Of a DNA stretch of 44,305 bases, positions 4,794 through 37,560 are shown one piece after another. The notes beneath the pieces were generated by a model. The model searched no databases. It was not told where the DNA came from and was given only the letters and a program-made list of their open reading frames with translations. Position numbers and translations under genes: made by a program. Position 1 is the first letter of the stretch, and each line of letters starts with the position of its first letter. The DNA comes from a candidate division Zixibacteria bacterium RBG_16_53_22. Lineage in GTDB: Bacteria; Zixibacteria; MSB-5A5; UBA10806. Location of the stretch: positions 948 to 45,252 of the forward strand of contig MEWP01000047.1 in assembly GCA_001775395.1 (NCBI GenBank), given 5' to 3'.

Positions 4794-4857
4794 GCTTTAG
4801 TCAACAGGCCTCTGGGGTTTAAGAACCCTCGAGGCCTTCGATAAGGCCAAATTGAAT

Positions 4858-4889
4858 CGGGCCTCCGGAAACGGAGGCCCGGTTTTTTT
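4858..4889 (+). terminator. Rho-independent terminator
   Basis: A perfect 10-bp stem (cgggcctccg / cggaggcccg) closed by a GAAA tetraloop is followed by seven T. It ends the transcript of the upstream exported protein. Confidence 0.93.
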
Positions 4890-5009
4890 ATGCCGCCGGG
4901 GTGATCGGCTAACCGCTGGCGTTTGCGGAATTATTATGTAATCGGAAAATGCATTTTTAATTATCTCTGGACTCCATTATTAATTATAAAAATCATTTTC
5001 AAAAATAAC

Positions 5010-8100: not shown

Positions 8101-9875
8101 CCTACTGGACCGACTTCCAGATATATAACCTCGGCTCCGCTGTTCTCACCTACTCGGTTTCCAATACCATCGGGTGGATTACCCTGGGCGGCATGACAGG
8201 CTTCGTATTCCCGGGGGGTAACGACAACATCGATGTCACAGTCAATACCAATGGAGTAACGCCCGGTGTCTATGTCGATTCCGTCACGATCATATCCAAC
8301 GATCCTGATGAGCCGATCGTTTACAGGCCGAAAATTGTCATTCAGGTGACCCAACCGCCTCCGGATAGCCTCTATTGGAAAGATTTCAATGGCCCGATGG
8401 TCGATGGTGGCTTTATGCCCGACTTTGATCAGCGCCAGATGGGGTGGTTTGCCTATTGTGGTCCGGCTTCTATCGCCAACTCGCTGTGGTGGTTCCAGGG
8501 CAAATTCCCTCAACGGATGATCGTGCCGCCGCAGTTTTATCCGCAGGATCCAGCCGGGTTTGTAATGTTCCTGGCGAGTTTGATGAATACCAATATCGGT
8601 CAGGCGCCCGGTACACATGTCGATAGTATGCAGGTCGGTATCGAGAGATATCTACAGATGATGGGCCTGGTCGATCTGCTCTATGAGCATACCGCTTATC
8701 AACCCCCATTCGATATGGTGGAATATGAAATCGAACGCTGTCAGGATGTGACTCTGCTAATCGGCTTCTGGCAGGTCATGCAGGTGATTCCGTCGGGTCC
8801 GGGACAGTGGATCGTCTACTGGCAGCGCCAGGGGGGACATTACGTTACAGCGGCCGGCGTCAACTCAGGCCAACTGTTGATCGGCCTGTCCGATCCCGCC
8901 TACGATAATTTCGAGGCCGGCGTTACCAGCGGCGTGTTGCGCGGAATTAATCATAACCACCCTATAGGCCACAACGATGGCGTCAGCGCATCCCACGACA
9001 TCTATTCTGTCAACAACGTCATGGTTTGCAGCCCCGGCGGCCTATGGGAAATCGAACATCCCTTCTGGCACAACCCCGGCCTGGCTTATGAATTCTACCG
9101 GCAAAACGGCGACACGGCCAATATCGAGTTGCCCTGGCCATGCCCATACCCGCCGCAGCAGGGTATGATATTCACCGAGATCGAGGCCGCTGTAATTGTC
9201 TCGCCACTCGAGGCCGTTCCAGATATCGATGTCGTGCCTGACTCGGTCTTCCATTCGCTTGTCACGAACACCGTCGTGAATTACCTCGACGATTTCAGCA
9301 TTTACAACCTCGGTACCGGGCCGCTTAATTGGAGCGCCGTCAATTCGCTGTCGTGGCTTACGCTGGGGACAACCTCCGGCACGGTCCTTCCCGGCGACGA
9401 TATCGCTATCGATGTCACGGTCAACGCCACCTCCATCCCTGTCGGAACTTACTGCGACACGGTCAGAATCTCCTCCGACGACCCGGATGAGCCGCTCGTT
9501 TCACAGCCGCGATATGTTATCGAGGTTACGGCGGGCGGGATCGAATGCGATTATGTAATTGGGGATATCAACGGCAGTGGCGGCGCTAATGGAATTGACG
9601 TTACATATGGCGTCGTTTACTTGAAAGGCGGGAGTGCTCCCAAAGATTCCTGCGACTGCCCTCCGCTGGCATTTCCCTTCTACGCGGCAATGGATGTCAA
9701 TGGCACCTGCTCCACCAACGGGATAGATATCACCTATTTCGTGAGTTACTTAAAGGGGCAACACCCGTCGCTGCTCTATTGCGAGGATTGCCCGCCCGCA
9801 GACAGGGGATTACCGGCAGTCGCGCCGATCGAGCCGCCGGAAAAAGTTGGAGGAAAAACAGATACGGGAAGATAG
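5115..9875 (+). CDS. Secreted protein with four tandem C39/papain-like domains, ASH/BACON-like repeats and dockerin-like tail
   Basis: This 1,586-residue protein starts with a plausible signal peptide (MARRKSLGLEMGSLFALIIS...). Four papain-fold, C39-like domains are recognised by a Cys-loop (consensus CGPAALANCIWWF) and a His-loop (GGHYVTxAGV). Domain 1 has Cys54, His233 and a HDN motif at Asp261-Asn262. Domain 3 has Cys600 and His742. Domain 4 has Cys1115 and His1242. Domain 2 aligns with Ser318 at the Cys position and Arg430 at the His position, so it is probably inactive. Beta-sandwich repeats resembling ASH/BACON domains (SNDPDEP motifs) start near residues 867, 974 and 1367; the first two lie between domains 3 and 4 and the third follows domain 4. 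A dockerin-like pair of Ca loops starts near 1475. Known C39-like enzymes are cysteine peptidases or peptide processors, but no substrate can be named here. A clear ribosome site precedes the ATG. Confidence 0.85.
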   Translation: MARRKSLGLEMGSLFALIISAGPMSICLAAHIPLVPDVQQPITGSLGNPTTNSCAPVSVVNVTEYWDNVVNDPGANMVNAGLVPNTAADYISYFVDHGNWGSPVRRNGTMYPISTGTYSADIEPGFDEFVRWDAAHLFTTPPPAIPPGKIGYDWNHSADYVNGFGMHVAAIDSGHPDVICFRYWNPIFSGFIMLDPSGETIEFHTWGPQISGSGPPNPPEQWNLNYGQECVGHAVTGVGYFIGDPDGPGPLPNTQWFICHDNWPTTGINIALPWANWAATIFGYPSPQEPPEISYWKPDTTYAQTGMPDFPSQYPCHSGATAVTNCLWWYGAMDYFQFINPRQLKDELLIYFAADTIFDPWGGTDVHQMELGLDAFFNDVDPPWPFYETTYPMPDFHVMAESLMKCQDVILLIGNWWQDATGAWWRDGGRYVTMAGVDTATLAIALSDPETDNAEAGGFGRVRPPHAVHSPTDNTHWFPFTAGGFDYQVSHDAYPVMLNSPSPGGAWWIPGFPRGFSPPYANCPAEFMSMTQGNPDPQLYPYHAEVEYAVMICPSRLPEPVDTCNYYKAPYIDYAQNGVPDFDQKQNGWWNQQSGNFSWCGPAALANCIWWFDSKFEPQPIDPRPFQPDPTSPPPNDHYPLLGSMGPWDDHDMNNVIPFISALGPMCGVDGPSPGTPLPQLQAGFHNWLNSVGLPNEYTSFIVMGPGYPQIRDSIMASQDVILLLGFYELLPTQDCQWLGGHYVTCAGVCTQEPALCISDPFFDSNEGEPPPGTAHGSAVHNDAFFVSGPHGSINHDRFNMAPQLQPCPASPATWSLTDYPNGWTQDGLFTFANENPLMPGAPPAQYRGGPIIVLVDAALIICPAPPAIPDIDVRPESLYYQQNSYTYVTYPDQIIICNTGSGSLNINSITSDLAWVTPGPFLATLAAGQCDTVDVIVNTAGIAPNIYTGWFHVNSNDPDEATVNKPWFAVRVIEPDIQVTPDSVFHSQLINTVNTYWTDFQIYNLGSAVLTYSVSNTIGWITLGGMTGFVFPGGNDNIDVTVNTNGVTPGVYVDSVTIISNDPDEPIVYRPKIVIQVTQPPPDSLYWKDFNGPMVDGGFMPDFDQRQMGWFAYCGPASIANSLWWFQGKFPQRMIVPPQFYPQDPAGFVMFLASLMNTNIGQAPGTHVDSMQVGIERYLQMMGLVDLLYEHTAYQPPFDMVEYEIERCQDVTLLIGFWQVMQVIPSGPGQWIVYWQRQGGHYVTAAGVNSGQLLIGLSDPAYDNFEAGVTSGVLRGINHNHPIGHNDGVSASHDIYSVNNVMVCSPGGLWEIEHPFWHNPGLAYEFYRQNGDTANIELPWPCPYPPQQGMIFTEIEAAVIVSPLEAVPDIDVVPDSVFHSLVTNTVVNYLDDFSIYNLGTGPLNWSAVNSLSWLTLGTTSGTVLPGDDIAIDVTVNATSIPVGTYCDTVRISSDDPDEPLVSQPRYVIEVTAGGIECDYVIGDINGSGGANGIDVTYGVVYLKGGSAPKDSCDCPPLAFPFYAAMDVNGTCSTNGIDITYFVSYLKGQHPSLLYCEDCPPADRGLPAVAPIEPPEKVGGKTDTGR

Positions 9876-19574: not shown

Positions 19575-21671
19575 ATGAAAAAAGAGACGATTGTAAAATC
19601 CGCTGTTGCCATGCTTATCTGCCTGCTGCTTTCAGGGGCCCAGGCATTTGACCCATCCGGGCTGCTGGAAATTCATTATATCAATGTTGGCTGGGGCACA
19701 TCGGTGCTGGTAATCGGCCCGGACGGTACCCGGATATTGATGGATGGCGGGCGGGACAACATGGGAAATAACCAGGTCAGACCCTACATGCAATCCATTG
19801 GGCTTATGCCTGCCGACAGCCTGCATTATATACTTGCCAGCCATATGCACTCGGATCATCTTGCCGGCTTGACTGAAGTCATGAATTCAGGCTATGACGT
19901 TTCTCAGGCTGTCCTTCATAATGGAAGCGATTATCAAACGACCTATGTGACCGCATTTCTTAACGCCGCTGCCCAGACTACTGCCGGGCCGGCTCGCCAG
20001 GTCGGATTGGGTGAGGTCATTCAGCTCGGAGATGGAGCTACGGCCACCTGTGTTTGCCGTGATGGTTACGTTGTCGGCCGGGGCTATATATCAGGCTCGC
20101 ACGACAACGAAAATGATCGGTCTATCGGAATCTTGATAAAATACGGCAATTTCGAATATGTTTTCGCCGGTGATCTGGGCGGGGGCGATCTCGATAATAA
20201 CTGTACCGACCGAAGCACGAATCAAATAGATGTGGAGGGGCCTATGGCTCAGGCGATCATGCCTGGCGGGCAGTATCCGCTCCTAACCACCGATGGTGTC
20301 GAGGTCGTTCATGTCAACCATCACGGCAGCGAAAGCTCGACAAACTCGACATATATGAATCTCCTTACGCCGGCGATCGCCTGCATATCGACCGGCGCGG
20401 GGCAGTCTCCGGATTATATGTTCCCCAGGCAAGATGTTGTCGATAACGTTTTGCTCTCGGGAGTCTACTGCGTAACGGCCGAGCCCGCGATTGTGTTGCA
20501 GAACGAGGAAGGACAGCCGAGCGGTTCTGAGACGAGTTTCTCGGGTTTTTGCGTCGGCGACATAAAAATCACTACTTCAGGAGAGGCCAATTTCACTGTC
20601 AGCGCCAACGGGCAGGTGACCGAGGGGCCCGATGAAAGATCCGTTGCCGGTCTGCCGATGACCATCCCGTTCGATGGGGCGCCGCCCGATATCACGCCGC
20701 CGATAGTGACGGTCATTTCGCCTGATGGCGGTGAAATCTGGTATGCAGGCAGTTACCATGATATCGCCTGGTCAGCATCCGACAGCATCGGGGTGGCATC
20801 TTATTCGATTGAGTATTCGACTAATTCCGGTTCCAATTGGCTCACTCTCGTGAGTCGCACCGATGGCAACCCCGGTATCTACTCCTGGAATCTGCCTCAA
20901 GCTAATTCCGCCAATTGCCTGGTGAAAATTACGGCATGGGATGGCGCCAACAATTTTGGCAATGATGTTTCTAATGGCGCATTTTCGATAATCCCATCGC
21001 CCGATAGTACCATACCCACAATCACTGTCGTTTCGCCAAACGGGGGAGAAGTCTGGTTCTGGGGTGATGTCGACACAATCAGATGGGTAGCCACCGACGA
21101 TATCGAGGTAACTTCCTATTCAATCAGCTATTCCACCAACGGCGGCGGAAGTTGGAGCAGTATCCAGGCCCGGGTCGATGGTAATCCGCAAGCCTACCCC
21201 TGGCTGGTGCCGAACGTCTCCACGGCGAACTGCAAAATCCGCGTCATTGTCTGGGACGCTGCTCAACATCTGGCAACAGACAATTCTGATGCCCCGTTTA
21301 CTCTTCGGGCGCCGGATTTTGAGGGCCCTGTGGTCAATATCATCGTGCCGGATGGCGGCGAGCTTTGGGGTGTTGGCTCGAGCAGATATATTTTATGGGA
21401 AGCGTCGGATGTCAGTGGTGTTGATTCCGTATCGCTTCAATACTCCGGCGACAACGGGCAAAATTGGCAAACCATTATGCCCTTTGCTCATGATAATGAC
21501 GGGAATTTCCTCTGGAATATCCAGGCTGTGCCATCGAGGCTGGCGCTGGTACGCATATTGGCCAAAGATATATTTGGAAATCAGAGCATGGCCGTCTCAG
21601 AGGCGCCGTTTGTGATTCGAATATCGCCCTCATATCAGAAGTTCGTGCGCGCGACCCCACTTGCCAGGTGA
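19575..21671 (+). CDS. Secreted ComEC-type metallo-beta-lactamase hydrolase with three Ig-like repeats
   Basis: A 698-residue protein with a signal peptide (MKKETIVKSAVAMLICLLLSGAQA). Residues 30-330 are a metallo-beta-lactamase fold of the ComEC/Rec2 C-terminal type: LEIHYINVGWG, ILMDGG, the metal motif SHMHSDH (His90, His92, Asp94, His95), FAGDLGGGD and NHHGSESSTN. Three repeats beginning near residues 376, 479 and 583 (ISPDGGEIW, VSPNGGEVW, IVPDGGELW) resemble Kre9/KNH-like Ig modules used for surface or polymer binding. Stand-alone members of this hydrolase group are suspected nucleases or phosphodiesterases; activity here is not established. Only AGGA directly abuts the ATG, so initiation may be weak. 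The reading frame stops five bases before a palindromic element, and its last ten residues (KFVRATPLAR) look non-native. Confidence 0.87.
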   Translation: MKKETIVKSAVAMLICLLLSGAQAFDPSGLLEIHYINVGWGTSVLVIGPDGTRILMDGGRDNMGNNQVRPYMQSIGLMPADSLHYILASHMHSDHLAGLTEVMNSGYDVSQAVLHNGSDYQTTYVTAFLNAAAQTTAGPARQVGLGEVIQLGDGATATCVCRDGYVVGRGYISGSHDNENDRSIGILIKYGNFEYVFAGDLGGGDLDNNCTDRSTNQIDVEGPMAQAIMPGGQYPLLTTDGVEVVHVNHHGSESSTNSTYMNLLTPAIACISTGAGQSPDYMFPRQDVVDNVLLSGVYCVTAEPAIVLQNEEGQPSGSETSFSGFCVGDIKITTSGEANFTVSANGQVTEGPDERSVAGLPMTIPFDGAPPDITPPIVTVISPDGGEIWYAGSYHDIAWSASDSIGVASYSIEYSTNSGSNWLTLVSRTDGNPGIYSWNLPQANSANCLVKITAWDGANNFGNDVSNGAFSIIPSPDSTIPTITVVSPNGGEVWFWGDVDTIRWVATDDIEVTSYSISYSTNGGGSWSSIQARVDGNPQAYPWLVPNVSTANCKIRVIVWDAAQHLATDNSDAPFTLRAPDFEGPVVNIIVPDGGELWGVGSSRYILWEASDVSGVDSVSLQYSGDNGQNWQTIMPFAHDNDGNFLWNIQAVPSRLALVRILAKDIFGNQSMAVSEAPFVIRISPSYQKFVRATPLAR

Positions 21672-21675
21672 CATG

Positions 21676-21829
21676 GCGGCAGGCCCCGCCGGCCCGTTAC
21701 GGGCCGGGTGAAACCCGACAACCCATGAATATGTCTATCGCCTTTGGCGGCGCCGGGGCCTGGCAGTTACGGGCGTTCGAGCGCGGTCGGGTTTCATGGC
21801 CCCCTTTGGGGGGCCGCGGGGCCTGCCGC
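21676..21829. repeat. Palindromic element, copy A (four-stem, 154 bp)
   Basis: Outer arms gcggcaggccccgc (21676-21689) and gcggggcctgccgc (21816-21829) pair perfectly over 14 bp. Inside each arm lies a side hairpin: cggccc/gggccg (21690-21706), and ggccccc/gggggcc with a TTT loop and one bulged G (21798-21815). The inner stem tgaaacccgac / gtcgggtttca (21709-21719 / 21786-21796) is perfect over 11 bp. An apical region of about 66 bases (21720-21785) starts near acccatgaatatgtctat. The architecture and parts of the sequence recur at 35515-35672. No protein gene is credible inside it. Confidence 0.85.
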
Positions 21830-21878: not shown

Positions 21879-21906
21879 TTGACATCCAATTTCAGAATGA
21901 TATGAT
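21879..21906 (+). promoter_or_regulatory. Promoter of the Crp/Fnr regulator gene
   Basis: TTGACA (21879-21884), a 16-base spacer and TATGAT (21901-21906). It starts 50 bases after palindromic element A. Confidence 0.8.
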
Positions 21907-21983: not shown

Positions 21984-22760
21984 ATGAATGCATCCGGGCA
22001 TCCTCAGGATATTCCGAGAACGACTGTTGCCGGTCGCGCTATCCACGGCCCGAGGGGGCGGGTTAGACCTTTGCCCACCAAAACCGAGGCTATTTCGAAG
22101 GTGCCGTTTTTTGTGAATTTCACCCCCGACGATATTGCCAACATCGAGCCGTTTTTTCAGGAATATCAATTCAGCAAGAATCAATACCTGTTTTGGGAGG
22201 GCGATGCCGCTACCAGGATGTTCGTAATTAAATCCGGCCGCGTCAAACTCTTGAAGACGTCGGCATCGGGCAAAGACATGGTTCTGGAGGTTATGGTGCC
22301 CGGCCAGATTTGCGGTGGCGGGGCGTTATTCGCGGAGTATCATCGCAACGGCGCCCAGGCGGTAGAGCCGACCGTCGCCTACGGCCTATCAAGAGAGAGT
22401 TATGATCGGCTGTTGACGAAATACCCCGAAATCGCCAGGGGTATAATAAATTACCTCGGCGCCAAGCTTATGGATGCTCACGATGTCATAATTTCCCTGG
22501 TATCGTCGAAAGTGGAAAGCCGGATAGCATCGGTCATCGTGCGGCTGTGCGAGAACCATGGCACCAGAACCAAGGATGGTATCTTGATCAATATCCGCCT
22601 TACCCGGCGGGACATTGCGGATATCGTCGGCTCGACAGTAGAAACCACGATCCGCACTATAAGCAGATTTCAGAAGCAGGGGCTATTGAACACTGTTGCT
22701 GGACGACTCCATATTAAGAATCTCGATGCCTTCAAGGAGATGATGAGGGCTGCCCGATGA
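21984..22760 (+). CDS. Crp/Fnr family transcriptional regulator
   Basis: A 258-residue protein. Residues about 38-160 form a cyclic-nucleotide-binding-type beta-roll (FFVNFTPDDIANIEPFF, RMFVIKSGRVKLLK). A long dimer helix follows, then a winged helix with RLTRRDIADIVGSTVETTIRTI (about residues 205-226). The N-terminal Cys cluster that holds the Fe-S centre in Fnr is absent, so it is not a typical oxygen sensor. The GDLFGE-type loop is reduced to VPGQICGGGALF, so the ligand cannot be predicted. The first 35 residues lie ahead of the conserved domain and the ribosome site is weak, so the true start might be later. It lies 175 bases upstream of a membrane Fe-S oxidoreductase, a possible target. 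Confidence 0.92.
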   Translation: MNASGHPQDIPRTTVAGRAIHGPRGRVRPLPTKTEAISKVPFFVNFTPDDIANIEPFFQEYQFSKNQYLFWEGDAATRMFVIKSGRVKLLKTSASGKDMVLEVMVPGQICGGGALFAEYHRNGAQAVEPTVAYGLSRESYDRLLTKYPEIARGIINYLGAKLMDAHDVIISLVSSKVESRIASVIVRLCENHGTRTKDGILINIRLTRRDIADIVGSTVETTIRTISRFQKQGLLNTVAGRLHIKNLDAFKEMMRAAR

Positions 22761-24927: not shown

Positions 24928-24939
24928 CATGAATCTATG

Positions 24940-24980
24940 TTCCGTCAGGTCGTATGCCAAAAGGCCGTGACCTGACGGAA
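24940..24980. terminator. Long hairpin between convergent genes
   Basis: A perfect 12-bp stem (ttccgtcaggtc / gacctgacggaa) with a 17-base loop that can form a small inner gcc-aaaa-ggc hairpin. It lies between the stops of the oxidoreductase and methyltransferase genes. There is no clear T tract on either strand, so it may act as a bidirectional 3'-end stabiliser. Confidence 0.55.
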
Positions 24981-24999
24981 TAGGCCTGATTGTCAAATT

Positions 25000-34044: not shown

Positions 34045-35481
34045 TTGGGAAATATGGATAAAAAATCGGTGTTAGTGGTCGATGATGACCCACAAATAAT
34101 CACGGCGCTTGGCGAATGCCTGGGCAATTTCGACTATAGCATGCAGGTGGCCACCAACGGGGCTGAGGCTCTTATCAAAGCAGCCGATCCCGATTTATCG
34201 CTGGTCATGCTCGATGTCAACCTGCCGGATTATTCCGGGCTCGAATTGCTCAACAAGATAAAGGAAAAGAACGCCAACCTGCCTGTCATAATCATGACCG
34301 GTTTTGTTTCCACCGAGGCCGCCATCGAGGCTATGAAACTTGGCGCCTACGAATTTGTCACCAAACCCTTCAATCTCGACAAGATCTCCACGCTCGTAAA
34401 CCGCGTCATGAAGAAGTCGAGCCACCTGCGCGGCCTGGAGACATTCTCCCGCGAGCCCGGCATCATTCCCGGCGATATCATCGGCCGCTCATCCGAGGTG
34501 GTCGAGATCGCCAAGATCATAGGTCAGGTGGCCGCCACCGATGCCGCTGTACTCATCTCGGGCGAATCAGGCACCGGCAAGGAGTTGGTGGCTCGTTCGA
34601 TATATAAAAATTCGCTTCGCAAGGATAAGCCGTTTCTGTCGGTCAATTGCGCCGCCCTGCCGGAGACCCTGCTCGAATCCGAGTTGTTCGGGCATGAGAA
34701 AGGCTCATTCACCGGTGCCTATACCCGGAAACTGGGTAAATTCGAGGTTTGCAGCGGGGGCACCATTCTCCTCGATGAAATCGCCGATATGTCGCCCCTT
34801 ACCCAGTCGAAAGTCCTGCGCGTACTTCAAGAACAAGAGTTCGAGCGGGTCGGCGGCACTGAGACAATTAAGGTCGATGTTCGCATGATCGCCGCCACCA
34901 ACAAGTCGCTCGTGAATCTCATCAAAGAGGGAAAATTCCGGGTTGATCTCTACTATAGGCTTAAAGTCGTATCCATCTATCTTCCCCCTTTAAGAGAGAG
35001 ACGCTCGGATATTCCTCTTCTCATCGACCACTTTATTCAGGTCTATTCGAAGGAAACCGGAAAGATAATCACCAATATCTCCAAGGCCGCTCTCGATGGG
35101 CTGCTCAAATACTCCTGGCCGGGTAATGTCAGGGAGCTCGAGAACAATATCCATACAGCGGTTGTGATGGCCAAAGGCGATATCCTTCTGCCCGAGGAAT
35201 TCCCCGTTCTCTCGGAACATCGCGAGACAGTCAGAATCGACCTGGAGCAGATCGAGGCCGATTATGCCAGGATGTTTTCCGAGGTCCTGACCCCGAATTT
35301 CGAGAAAATTATGAGCATATCCGGAAGTCATATTTATCACCACCTTCAATCCGGTTTCGAGAAGGCCTTGATTTCTGCGGTCCTGCGCTTCACAAGTTCC
35401 AATCAGGTCAAGGCGTCGGAACTCTTAGGTATCTCACGAAACACGCTTCGCGACCGTATCAGCAAGTACGGCCTTTATTAA
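34045..35481 (+). CDS. NtrC-family sigma54-dependent response regulator
   Basis: A 475-478-residue protein. The start is either the TTG at 34045 (AGGGGA upstream) or the ATG at 34054, which would place the phosphoacceptor in MLDVNLPDYSGL at Asp54. A receiver domain (VLVVDDD, KPF) is followed by an AAA+ domain with Walker A GESGTGKE, the sigma54 contact loop GSFTGA (Ser in place of the common Ala), GGTILLDEIADM and SWPGNVRELEN. A Fis-type helix-turn-helix closes it (KASELLGISRNTLRDRISKYGL). No sensor kinase is adjacent, so the signal is unknown. A weak promoter (TTGGCC, 18 bases, TTATAG at 33961-33990) may lie upstream. Confidence 0.95.
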   Translation: MGNMDKKSVLVVDDDPQIITALGECLGNFDYSMQVATNGAEALIKAADPDLSLVMLDVNLPDYSGLELLNKIKEKNANLPVIIMTGFVSTEAAIEAMKLGAYEFVTKPFNLDKISTLVNRVMKKSSHLRGLETFSREPGIIPGDIIGRSSEVVEIAKIIGQVAATDAAVLISGESGTGKELVARSIYKNSLRKDKPFLSVNCAALPETLLESELFGHEKGSFTGAYTRKLGKFEVCSGGTILLDEIADMSPLTQSKVLRVLQEQEFERVGGTETIKVDVRMIAATNKSLVNLIKEGKFRVDLYYRLKVVSIYLPPLRERRSDIPLLIDHFIQVYSKETGKIITNISKAALDGLLKYSWPGNVRELENNIHTAVVMAKGDILLPEEFPVLSEHRETVRIDLEQIEADYARMFSEVLTPNFEKIMSISGSHIYHHLQSGFEKALISAVLRFTSSNQVKASELLGISRNTLRDRISKYGLY

Positions 35482-35514: not shown

Positions 35515-35672
35515 GCCGGCCCCGCCATTGCGGCTCCCCCCTGAAAGGGGGGAGGGCAATCGCCGTTTCGAATCGGCAATGGTTACCCATCATGCCTATA
35601 TTACTTGTCGGGCATTGTGCCATTTGCAGCCTGGCGATTGCTGCCCATATGGGCCGCAATGGCGGGGCCGGC
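35515..35672. repeat. Palindromic element, copy B (four-stem, 158 bp)
   Basis: Outer arms gccggccccgccattgcggc (35515-35534) and its perfect complement (35653-35672) form a 20-bp stem. Side hairpins are ctcccccc/ggggggag with a TGAAA loop (35534-35554) and gcccatatgggc (35643-35654). The inner stem gcaatcgcc-type pairing (35556-35564 with 35633-35641) is 9 bp. The apical region is 68 bases and contains acccatcatgcctat, similar to copy A. The left end shares GCGGC(A/C)GGCCCCGCC with copy A. Confidence 0.85.
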
Positions 35673-35718: not shown

Positions 35719-37560
35719 ATGAAATACTTGATAACGGCACTTATGTTCCTGATTCTGGCCCCTATCGGCAACAGCCAGACGGTGGCGCCGGCTCCATTCC
35801 AGGCCCTCGATTCCCTTCAACGTGCCATCGACATGAGCTTATCGTCGCTCAAGATGCATCGCGGCGATCTGACTTTCAGGGGCGATTACCTCGAGGAAGA
35901 CCCCTACCGTTTGCCGATTGTCGACACCTACATGAAGGAACCCCTCAAGATCATCGATTTTGCAGATTCCGTCCTGACTTTCGAAAGACTGACTGAGTTC
36001 AAAATCAGAAGCCTCCTGGGCAATAAGAGCTCCGAGGTCAAGCGTGCCCCGAATTCCAAATCAGCCGAAAGAGACAGTCGGCTGTTCGAGCGGGCGGATA
36101 CTCTTCTCGGCCGGGATGTCTCCTCTCTTCTGAAGGGTCTGCTTTATCTGGCCCGGGGCGTGGACCCCGACAACTGGCCGGGCTTCTCCGGTTATTCCAG
36201 GTTCCAGAGGGATTCTCTGGTCGAGGGTTTTACGCTGCTGCTTGAGGAAAATGTTGAGGACGAATTCAAGACTATCTATCAGCTCGATAGTATCGCGCAA
36301 TACGAGGACCGCTGGGCTGAGCGGCTTGTTAAATTGACTGAGAACAGCCGCGGCCGCGGGAAAATAGTCGATGAATTTATCAGCCTGCTCGATTCCTCTC
36401 TTGCCAGGCCGCCGATGGTTCCCGCCAAGGCCCGCAATTATTCCCTGATTACCGATTATGGCGATATTGTCATCGGCGATACCTCCGCCAATACATACCA
36501 GGGTGACTTCTTTATCATTATCGATCCCGGCGGTGACGATACTTATAACCTCAAATTCACGGGGGTCGGTCACCAGATATATATAATCGATTTGTCCGGC
36601 CATGACTCATACTCGTTTCCCAAAGGCCGGATCAGCCCCCTATTTTTCGGCGGCAGCATGATAGTCGATTTCAAGGGTGATGATTGCTATACCGGCGGCT
36701 CATACTCTTTGGGAGCCGGGCTGTTCGGGGTCAGCGTGCTCTGGGATAAGGCCGGTAACGACCGTTATTACGGGGATGCATTCACCCAGGGCGCCGGTTG
36801 TTTTGGTGTCGGCATATTGCGGGACGACTCCGGCAACGATTCCTACCAGGCGGCGCTGTTCGCACAAGGTTTCGGCTTTGTCGACGGGGTCGGAATCCTG
36901 TGGGACTTTGCCGGCAATGATACTTATATCGCCGGTGGCCGATATAAAGATATCCTTCGCTACAAGGATCACTATTTATCGCTGTCGCAGGGTTTTGCGT
37001 ACGGCATTAGGCCCAAAATGTCGGGAGGAATTGGCCTGCTCGTCGACAAAGCCGGTAATGACGCTTACATTTCGGATATTTTCGGCCAGGGATCATCATA
37101 TTGGTACGGCCTGGGAGTCCTGTCCGACAGCGCCGGCAACGACCAATATGTCTCATTCCAATACGCGCAGGGCGCCGCCACACACATGACCGTAGGCATC
37201 TTATTCGAAGCCGCTGGAGATGATGTCTACTCGGCCAAAGGCGTTTCTCAGGGATGCGGCCATGACCGCGCCGCCGGATTGCTCGTCGATCTGGACGGCA
37301 ACGATTCTTACAACGCATATGACTTATCCCAGGCAGCCGGGTCGGCCAACGGCCTCGGATTCCTGGCCGATATCAGGGGCGTTGACGCCTATGTCGTCCG
37401 GTCCGATCAAAACACTCGAGGGTTCGGCCAGCCGAGACGTGACTATGGCTCCATTGGCATTTTCATCGATTTGAGCGGTCGCGATGGCTACGCCGGTGGT
37501 GTTGGGCATGATTCAACCTGGTGGAGCGATTCAAAGTGGGGAGTAGGGATAGATCAATGA
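35719..37560 (+). CDS. Exported GND-Y repeat solenoid protein of unknown function
   Basis: I start at the ATG at 35719, which begins a signal peptide (MKYLITALMFLILAPIGNSQ); an upstream ATG at 35692 lies inside the promoter. The product has 613 residues. Residues about 25-240 are helical and charged. From about 262 to 595 a repeat of roughly 30 residues recurs 12 times, with the core G-[ND]-D-x-Y (GGDDTY, SGHDSY, KGDDCY, AGNDRY, SGNDSY, AGNDTY, AGNDAY, AGNDQY, AGDDVY, DGNDSY, RGVDAY, SGRDGY), most preceded by GVGIL-type strands and followed by (A/S)QG. This suggests a right-handed beta-solenoid, perhaps with Ca bound by the Asp residues. It is not the RTX nonapeptide. The next gene overlaps by four bases. 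Confidence 0.88.
   Translation: MKYLITALMFLILAPIGNSQTVAPAPFQALDSLQRAIDMSLSSLKMHRGDLTFRGDYLEEDPYRLPIVDTYMKEPLKIIDFADSVLTFERLTEFKIRSLLGNKSSEVKRAPNSKSAERDSRLFERADTLLGRDVSSLLKGLLYLARGVDPDNWPGFSGYSRFQRDSLVEGFTLLLEENVEDEFKTIYQLDSIAQYEDRWAERLVKLTENSRGRGKIVDEFISLLDSSLARPPMVPAKARNYSLITDYGDIVIGDTSANTYQGDFFIIIDPGGDDTYNLKFTGVGHQIYIIDLSGHDSYSFPKGRISPLFFGGSMIVDFKGDDCYTGGSYSLGAGLFGVSVLWDKAGNDRYYGDAFTQGAGCFGVGILRDDSGNDSYQAALFAQGFGFVDGVGILWDFAGNDTYIAGGRYKDILRYKDHYLSLSQGFAYGIRPKMSGGIGLLVDKAGNDAYISDIFGQGSSYWYGLGVLSDSAGNDQYVSFQYAQGAATHMTVGILFEAAGDDVYSAKGVSQGCGHDRAAGLLVDLDGNDSYNAYDLSQAAGSANGLGFLADIRGVDAYVVRSDQNTRGFGQPRRDYGSIGIFIDLSGRDGYAGGVGHDSTWWSDSKWGVGIDQ

Follow-up and report, generated by a model that had tools for sequence, protein, structure and literature searches.

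Four-stem palindromic elements between genes of a Zixibacteria bacterium, probable descendants of REPINs

The two elements of the window and their neighbours

The window (the whole stretch of DNA analysed, 44,305 nucleotides) carries two palindromic elements, copy 1 and copy 2, each located between two genes of the forward strand. Both have one architecture: an outer stem, a side hairpin, an inner stem bearing a loop of about 66 nt, and a second side hairpin. The genome of the window (G000) was compared with its congener G001, with G002-G004 from the same family, G005 and G007 from the same order, and G026, G033 and G037 from the same class. The features are as follows.

19575..21671, forward strand: gene (MBL) for a metallo-beta-lactamase fold protein with an Ig domain; its 3' end has an element in G001 too
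21676..21829: copy 1, whole four-stem element; folding z-score -7.5; matched with E 5e-7 by R1, a covariance model made from another copy
21676..21689: copy 1, outer stem left arm, GCGGCAGGCCCCGC, 14/14 complementary to 21816-21829
21690..21706: copy 1, first side hairpin, CGGCCCGTTACGGGCCG, 17 nt
21708..21719: copy 1, inner stem left arm, GTGAAACCCGAC, including the family motif GAAACCC; inner stem of 11-12 bp
21720..21785: copy 1, apical spacer, 66 nt, unlike the spacers of other copies
21786..21797: copy 1, inner stem right arm
21798..21815: copy 1, second side hairpin, GGCCCCCTTTGGGGGGCC, 18 nt
21816..21829: copy 1, outer stem right arm
21984..22760, forward strand: gene (CRP) for a CRP/FNR-type regulator; the upstream element is also in G001
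34045..35481, forward strand: gene (RR) for a sigma-54-dependent response regulator; it precedes the gap where copy 2 lies
35515..35672: copy 2, whole four-stem element; folding z-score -7.3; R1 match with E 1.6e-5
35515..35534: copy 2, outer stem left arm, 20/20 with 35653-35672; the innermost pairs compete with the side hairpins
35534..35554: copy 2, first side hairpin, CTCCCCCCTGAAAGGGGGGAG, 21 nt
35555..35565: copy 2, inner stem left arm, GGCAATCGCCG, without GAAACCC; inner stem of 9-11 bp
35566..35631: copy 2, apical spacer, 66 nt (loop of 66-68 nt)
35632..35642: copy 2, inner stem right arm
35643..35654: copy 2, second side hairpin, GCCCATATGGGC, 12 nt
35655..35672: copy 2, outer stem right arm
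35719..37560, forward strand: gene (G5) for a product of 613 aa without a Pfam match; G002-G004 have an orthologous neighbour

The minimum free energy calculated for the RNA was -108.7 kcal/mol for copy 1 and -106.4 kcal/mol for copy 2, and for each of them none of 200 dinucleotide shuffles was as stable. Together with the fully complementary outer arms, these values bore out the four-stem architecture that the original prediction had assigned to both copies. Copy 1 starts 5 nt and copy 2 starts 34 nt after the stop codon of the preceding gene. Promoter-like sites begin at 21879 and 35684, in agreement with the distances of 50 and 12 bases given beforehand. No U-run follows either copy, and the Rfam 15 covariance models, applied at gathering score, gave no match within the window.

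Copy number, anatomy and paired changes

A BLAST-type search with either copy returned short fragments only and no other copies. A structural scan of 326 kb of G000 found five further elements of the same layout, and the covariance model R1, derived from one of these five with the loop masked, recovered both window copies. A second model (R2), built from the R1 matches, the window copies among them, located the element in at least 27 places in G000 (E up to 0.02), a lower bound because 150 of 888 candidates were scored. The two-copy family of the original prediction was not upheld, and the covariance-model check proposed with it yielded further homologues in G000 and in relatives, with paired stems that vary together. 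Covariance models recover copies missed by sequence searches.

Other palindromes were observed as well. Two adjoining large ones of other sequence lie in G000 at L066:8909-9026 and 9034-9219, and another dispersed palindromic repeat, of the GGGTGGCATGC type, is found at L033:6200-6288, L040:3957-4099 and L045:11880-11995. Runs of N occur in or beside elements (L062:579-598, L045 just past 5058, and L332 near 920), so that assembly gaps coincide with the elements.

The outer arms of different copies were 48% identical among the 24 copies parsed, and each arm fitted its own partner better than those of other copies: 12.7 of 14 positions paired within an element vs 6.2 between elements for the outer arms, and 10.9 vs 6.7 for the inner arms. 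Both side hairpins likewise matched their own partner better. The compensatory stem change proposed from the two window copies was supported in this way; what the paired changes preserve is the fold and not the sequence. The fold may be retained through selection, acting on RNA or on DNA shape, or through templated correction. Most inner arms contain GAAACCC, and most G000 copies combine a GGGGCC outer arm with a GAAACCC inner arm; copy 2, where this motif is absent, is among the most deviant.

The apical spacer, defined as the core less 13 nt per side, measured 56-68 nt in 22 of the 24 copies and 31-35 nt in the other two. Likeness among the 24 spacers went no further than 8-9 nt, none of them resembled the G000 DNA searched, and the possibility that the apical parts are captured sequences or spacers was rejected on these grounds. 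The apical ACCCAT...CTAT earlier taken to be shared by the window copies is accordingly most likely a chance likeness. A fifth stem in the apex was also rejected (mean z -0.24 against mononucleotide shuffles).

Copies sit between predicted genes, many of them within about 20 nt of a stop codon, and the crude ORF call used enters several elements. The neighbouring genes were in tandem in 15 cases, convergent in 5, divergent in 3 and not assigned in 3. Target-site duplications, which had been suggested as a further check, were not seen around the copies; such duplications are not expected of HUH enzymes such as RAYT.

The age of the elements can be judged from shared gene boundaries. Three boundaries have elements in both G000 and G001: the 3' end of MBL, the 5' end of CRP and the 5' end of a gene X. 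Five had been counted as conserved before gene mapping; the boundaries at L318 (RR2) and L201 were dropped because another gene intervenes. The order is MBL-element-CRP in G000, and MBL-element-185-aa gene and X-element-CRP in G001. The elements thus sit at rearrangement joints, and recombination between elements could be the cause. No element was found upstream of the CRP gene in G002-G004. When copy 1 was compared with the element at the MBL end in G001, differences were seen in 3 of the 11 outer pairs closest to the junction, each on both sides.

The RR-G5 gap encloses a four-stem element in G000, G002, G003 and G004, with differing stem sequence. Relative to G003, the two-sided changes and broken pairs in this gap numbered 2:2 in G004, 8:11 in G002 and 11:19 in G000, as counted on an alignment too loose to make a strong case for covariation. 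To judge by their sequence, copy 2 and its counterparts in G002-G004, which are without GAAACCC, may be another doublet family. An operator-like inverted repeat (ATCTGCACATTTTTGCAGAT and variants) was observed upstream of the following gene in G002, G004 and G003 (L320, L322 and L321), between the counterpart of copy 2 and the promoter; it was not seen in the window.

GTAG-tagged relatives and RAYT genes

A GTAG-tagged REP (GTAGGTCGGGTT..hairpin..AAACCCGAC) was detected in 62 of the 133 genomes of the class, and the reversed-pattern control in none of them. These REPs often occur as inverted pairs, and such doublets fold into the same four stems as the window copies. Outside G000, R2 matched places in the congener G001, in the order relatives G007 and G005 and in the class relatives G026, G033 and G037; those of G033 were GTAG doublets, and those of G007 and G005 were related elements. 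In several relatives, the matched arms read GTAGGTCGGGTTCCG..hairpin..GAGAAACCCGACA, which is a GTAG-tagged REP. The forms can be set out as a chain, from the tagged end (outer GGTCGGGTTCCG, inner GAGAAACCCGAC) through G001 (outer CGGGTTCCGC, inner GAAATCC) to a G000 copy, L099 (outer GGGTTCCGC, inner AGAAACCC), and on to the GGGGCC and GAAACCC of most G000 copies. To judge by motif similarity, the arms of the untagged copies are probably REP-derived.

Furthermore, RAYT genes were found between such repeats. In G033 the gene lies between two GTAG doublets, and in G007 between two GTAG-type REPs. In G000, the RAYT gene of contig C29 (L062:4317-4790; NF047646, 113.6 bits, cut-off 80) has a GTAG REP on one side (L062:4254) and a GTAG doublet on the other (about 4815-4940). 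These three REP-bracketed RAYTs are 50-52% identical, and among the 15 compared, that of C29 is closest to those of G033 and G007 (51-52%). An element without the tag lies at 555-741 on contig C29 as well. In G000, 10 RAYT genes above the Pfam cut-off were examined with 1.5 kb flanks, and an untagged element stood beside none of them.

Additionally, at least 10 Y1/RAYT-type genes over the Pfam cut-off were observed in G000 at L242, L243, L244 and L266-L270, most of them bracketed by differing inverted repeats, like the 'TIRtrons' of PMC3733652. The window itself holds a palindrome at 24938-24986 (TTCCGTCAGGTC..GACCTGACGGAATA) with many matching places in G003 and G004 (about 88-93% identity). 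It is similar to the CGTCAGG-type inverted repeats next to further RAYT genes (L263, L269) and represents a second repeat family.

None of the 24 copies had GTAG or its complement at its ends. Pairing at the level of the single REP was 4.6 in the untagged copies vs 3.8 expected by chance (sd 1.1 per arm pair); six tagged or near-tagged doublets gave 6.7. At the level of the doublet, pairing of the untagged copies was 11.8 of 14, and all parsed copies show the doublet fold of two inverted arms and a spacer in one long hairpin. Since TnpA_REP needs both GTAG and the REP hairpin in vitro (PMC8266576), and both have been lost, the untagged copies are probably inert and no longer RAYT substrates. 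As the tag and the REP hairpin are two defining features, the elements are not counted as REPIN members.

Origin and persistence of the untagged elements

Given the GTAG doublets with the same fold and the REP-bracketed RAYT genes, descent from RAYT-mobilised REP doublets (REPINs) is the best reading of the elements. Of the three readings offered by the original prediction, a non-autonomous mobile element with its transposase elsewhere fits this origin best. Its remark that it knew of no described family for them was not supported, as inverted REP doublets, or REPINs, are already known (PMC3116915, PMC3733652).

Like the REPINs of Bertels and Rainey (2011; PMC3116915), the elements have inverted arms, a long hairpin and a spacer in which length counts for more than sequence; they too show compensatory changes, are extragenic and present in many copies, and share the genome with a RAYT. 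They differ in that GTAG is absent, REP-level pairing is lost, spacers are unrelated between copies, each arm has a long side hairpin and the copies are far more diverged. The description of GTAG REPs and of REPtrons (Di Nocera et al., 2013, PMC3733652; Nunvar et al., 2010, PMC2817692) is fitted by the tagged relatives (GTAGGTCGGGTT..AAACCCGAC) that bracket RAYT genes, and placement after coding regions is likewise a common feature, whereas the window copies are without the tag; the motif GTAGGTCGGGTT..AAACCCGAC itself was not found in the sections of PMC3733652 consulted. The BIMEs of enterobacteria (PMC8266576) also join a REP and an inverse REP via a linker; the window elements differ from them in sequence and are not in tandem clusters.

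We consider it probable that the elements descend from REPINs which lost the tag and the REP stem and kept the doublet cruciform by paired changes, a reading built on the observed architecture, copy number, paired changes, same-fold GTAG doublets, bracketed RAYTs, tag and stem loss, and conserved boundaries. The ancestor would have been two inverted REPs, each with its own hairpin, and a spacer between them, moved as folded single-stranded DNA by RAYT, an HUH tyrosine transposase that recognises GTAG and the REP hairpin. The tagged form (GTAGGTCGGGTTCCG..hairpin..GAGAAACCCGAC, spacer, inverse) occurs widely in the class and continues to bracket RAYT genes, one of them in G000. In the genus, old copies would have remained at gene boundaries and lost GTAG and the REP-level stem, and with them mobility; the doublet-level cruciform, with its outer and inner stems, its two side hairpins and a loop of about 62-66 nt, would have been kept through paired changes. 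That the fold is kept for a role at the gene end is the least certain part. The unrelated spacers count against REPIN descent, because recently moved copies should share spacers, and so do the lack of untagged elements beside the RAYT genes examined in G000, the dependence of the link between tagged and untagged forms on short motifs and architecture, and the missing GAAACCC of copy 2 and its counterparts.

An action as RNA, compatible with a REPIN origin, is possible, if on the unlikely side: as long 3'-end structures, the elements would terminate or shield the upstream transcript and set it apart from the downstream promoter, with selection on the RNA fold. The intergenic positions close to stop codons, the distribution of gene orientations, the good promoter just downstream of both window copies and the compensated stem changes agree with such a role. 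However, the sense strand is not clearly favoured (more stable in 9 of 13 cases, mean difference -0.6 kcal/mol), some copies are apparently between divergent genes, and both the U-run and an Rfam match are missing at the window copies. That both strands fold about equally well would rather suit an account without function, in which hairpin-templated correction at replication keeps the palindromes perfect and the arms change together without selection. Template switching is known to correct imperfect palindromes, and the arms are near-perfect despite sequence turnover; nevertheless, this account seems rather unlikely, as it leaves unexplained the spacer length of 56-68 nt in 22 of 24 copies with unconstrained sequence, the two separate side hairpins and the persistence of an element in the gap of copy 2 in three genera.

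The inverted repeats, the many copies and the lack of coding sequence would also be expected of an independent MITE of a DDE transposase or of an integron attC-like set, unrelated to REPs. Such an origin is very improbable: the outer ends differ among copies and no target-site duplication was seen, against the former; copies are scattered singly and form no array, against the latter; and both are at odds with the REP-like motifs and with the tagged forms next to RAYT genes. Two chance GC-rich palindromes might be suspected from the bare fold descriptor, which is not fully specific and gave 6 matches in 644 kb of unrelated bacterial DNA. The cores of those matches are scattered from 65 to 117 nt, however, whereas the six matches of the same scan in G000 all have cores of 87-91 nt, and 20 shuffled windows gave none. 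With both window copies found by R1 and 27 places found by the sequence-structure models, chance was refuted and has practically no probability left.

Descent from REPINs also leaves room for a use by the host. It is conceivable, though quite unlikely, that the untagged elements were domesticated and kept well beyond the loss of mobility, a host protein or transcript needing, at chosen gene ends, a cruciform with a single-stranded loop of about 62-66 nt and arbitrary sequence. A single-strand-binding protein wraps 65 nt, and a relation of the loop size to this length is pure speculation. To our knowledge, it is unsettled whether REP doublets persist because the transposase remakes them or because the host uses their shape. 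The set described here has lost the features that the transposase requires, yet keeps the doublet fold, the spacer length and several boundary positions, partly across genera. A set without tag that keeps its fold makes this question of persistence, through transposase or host, directly testable.
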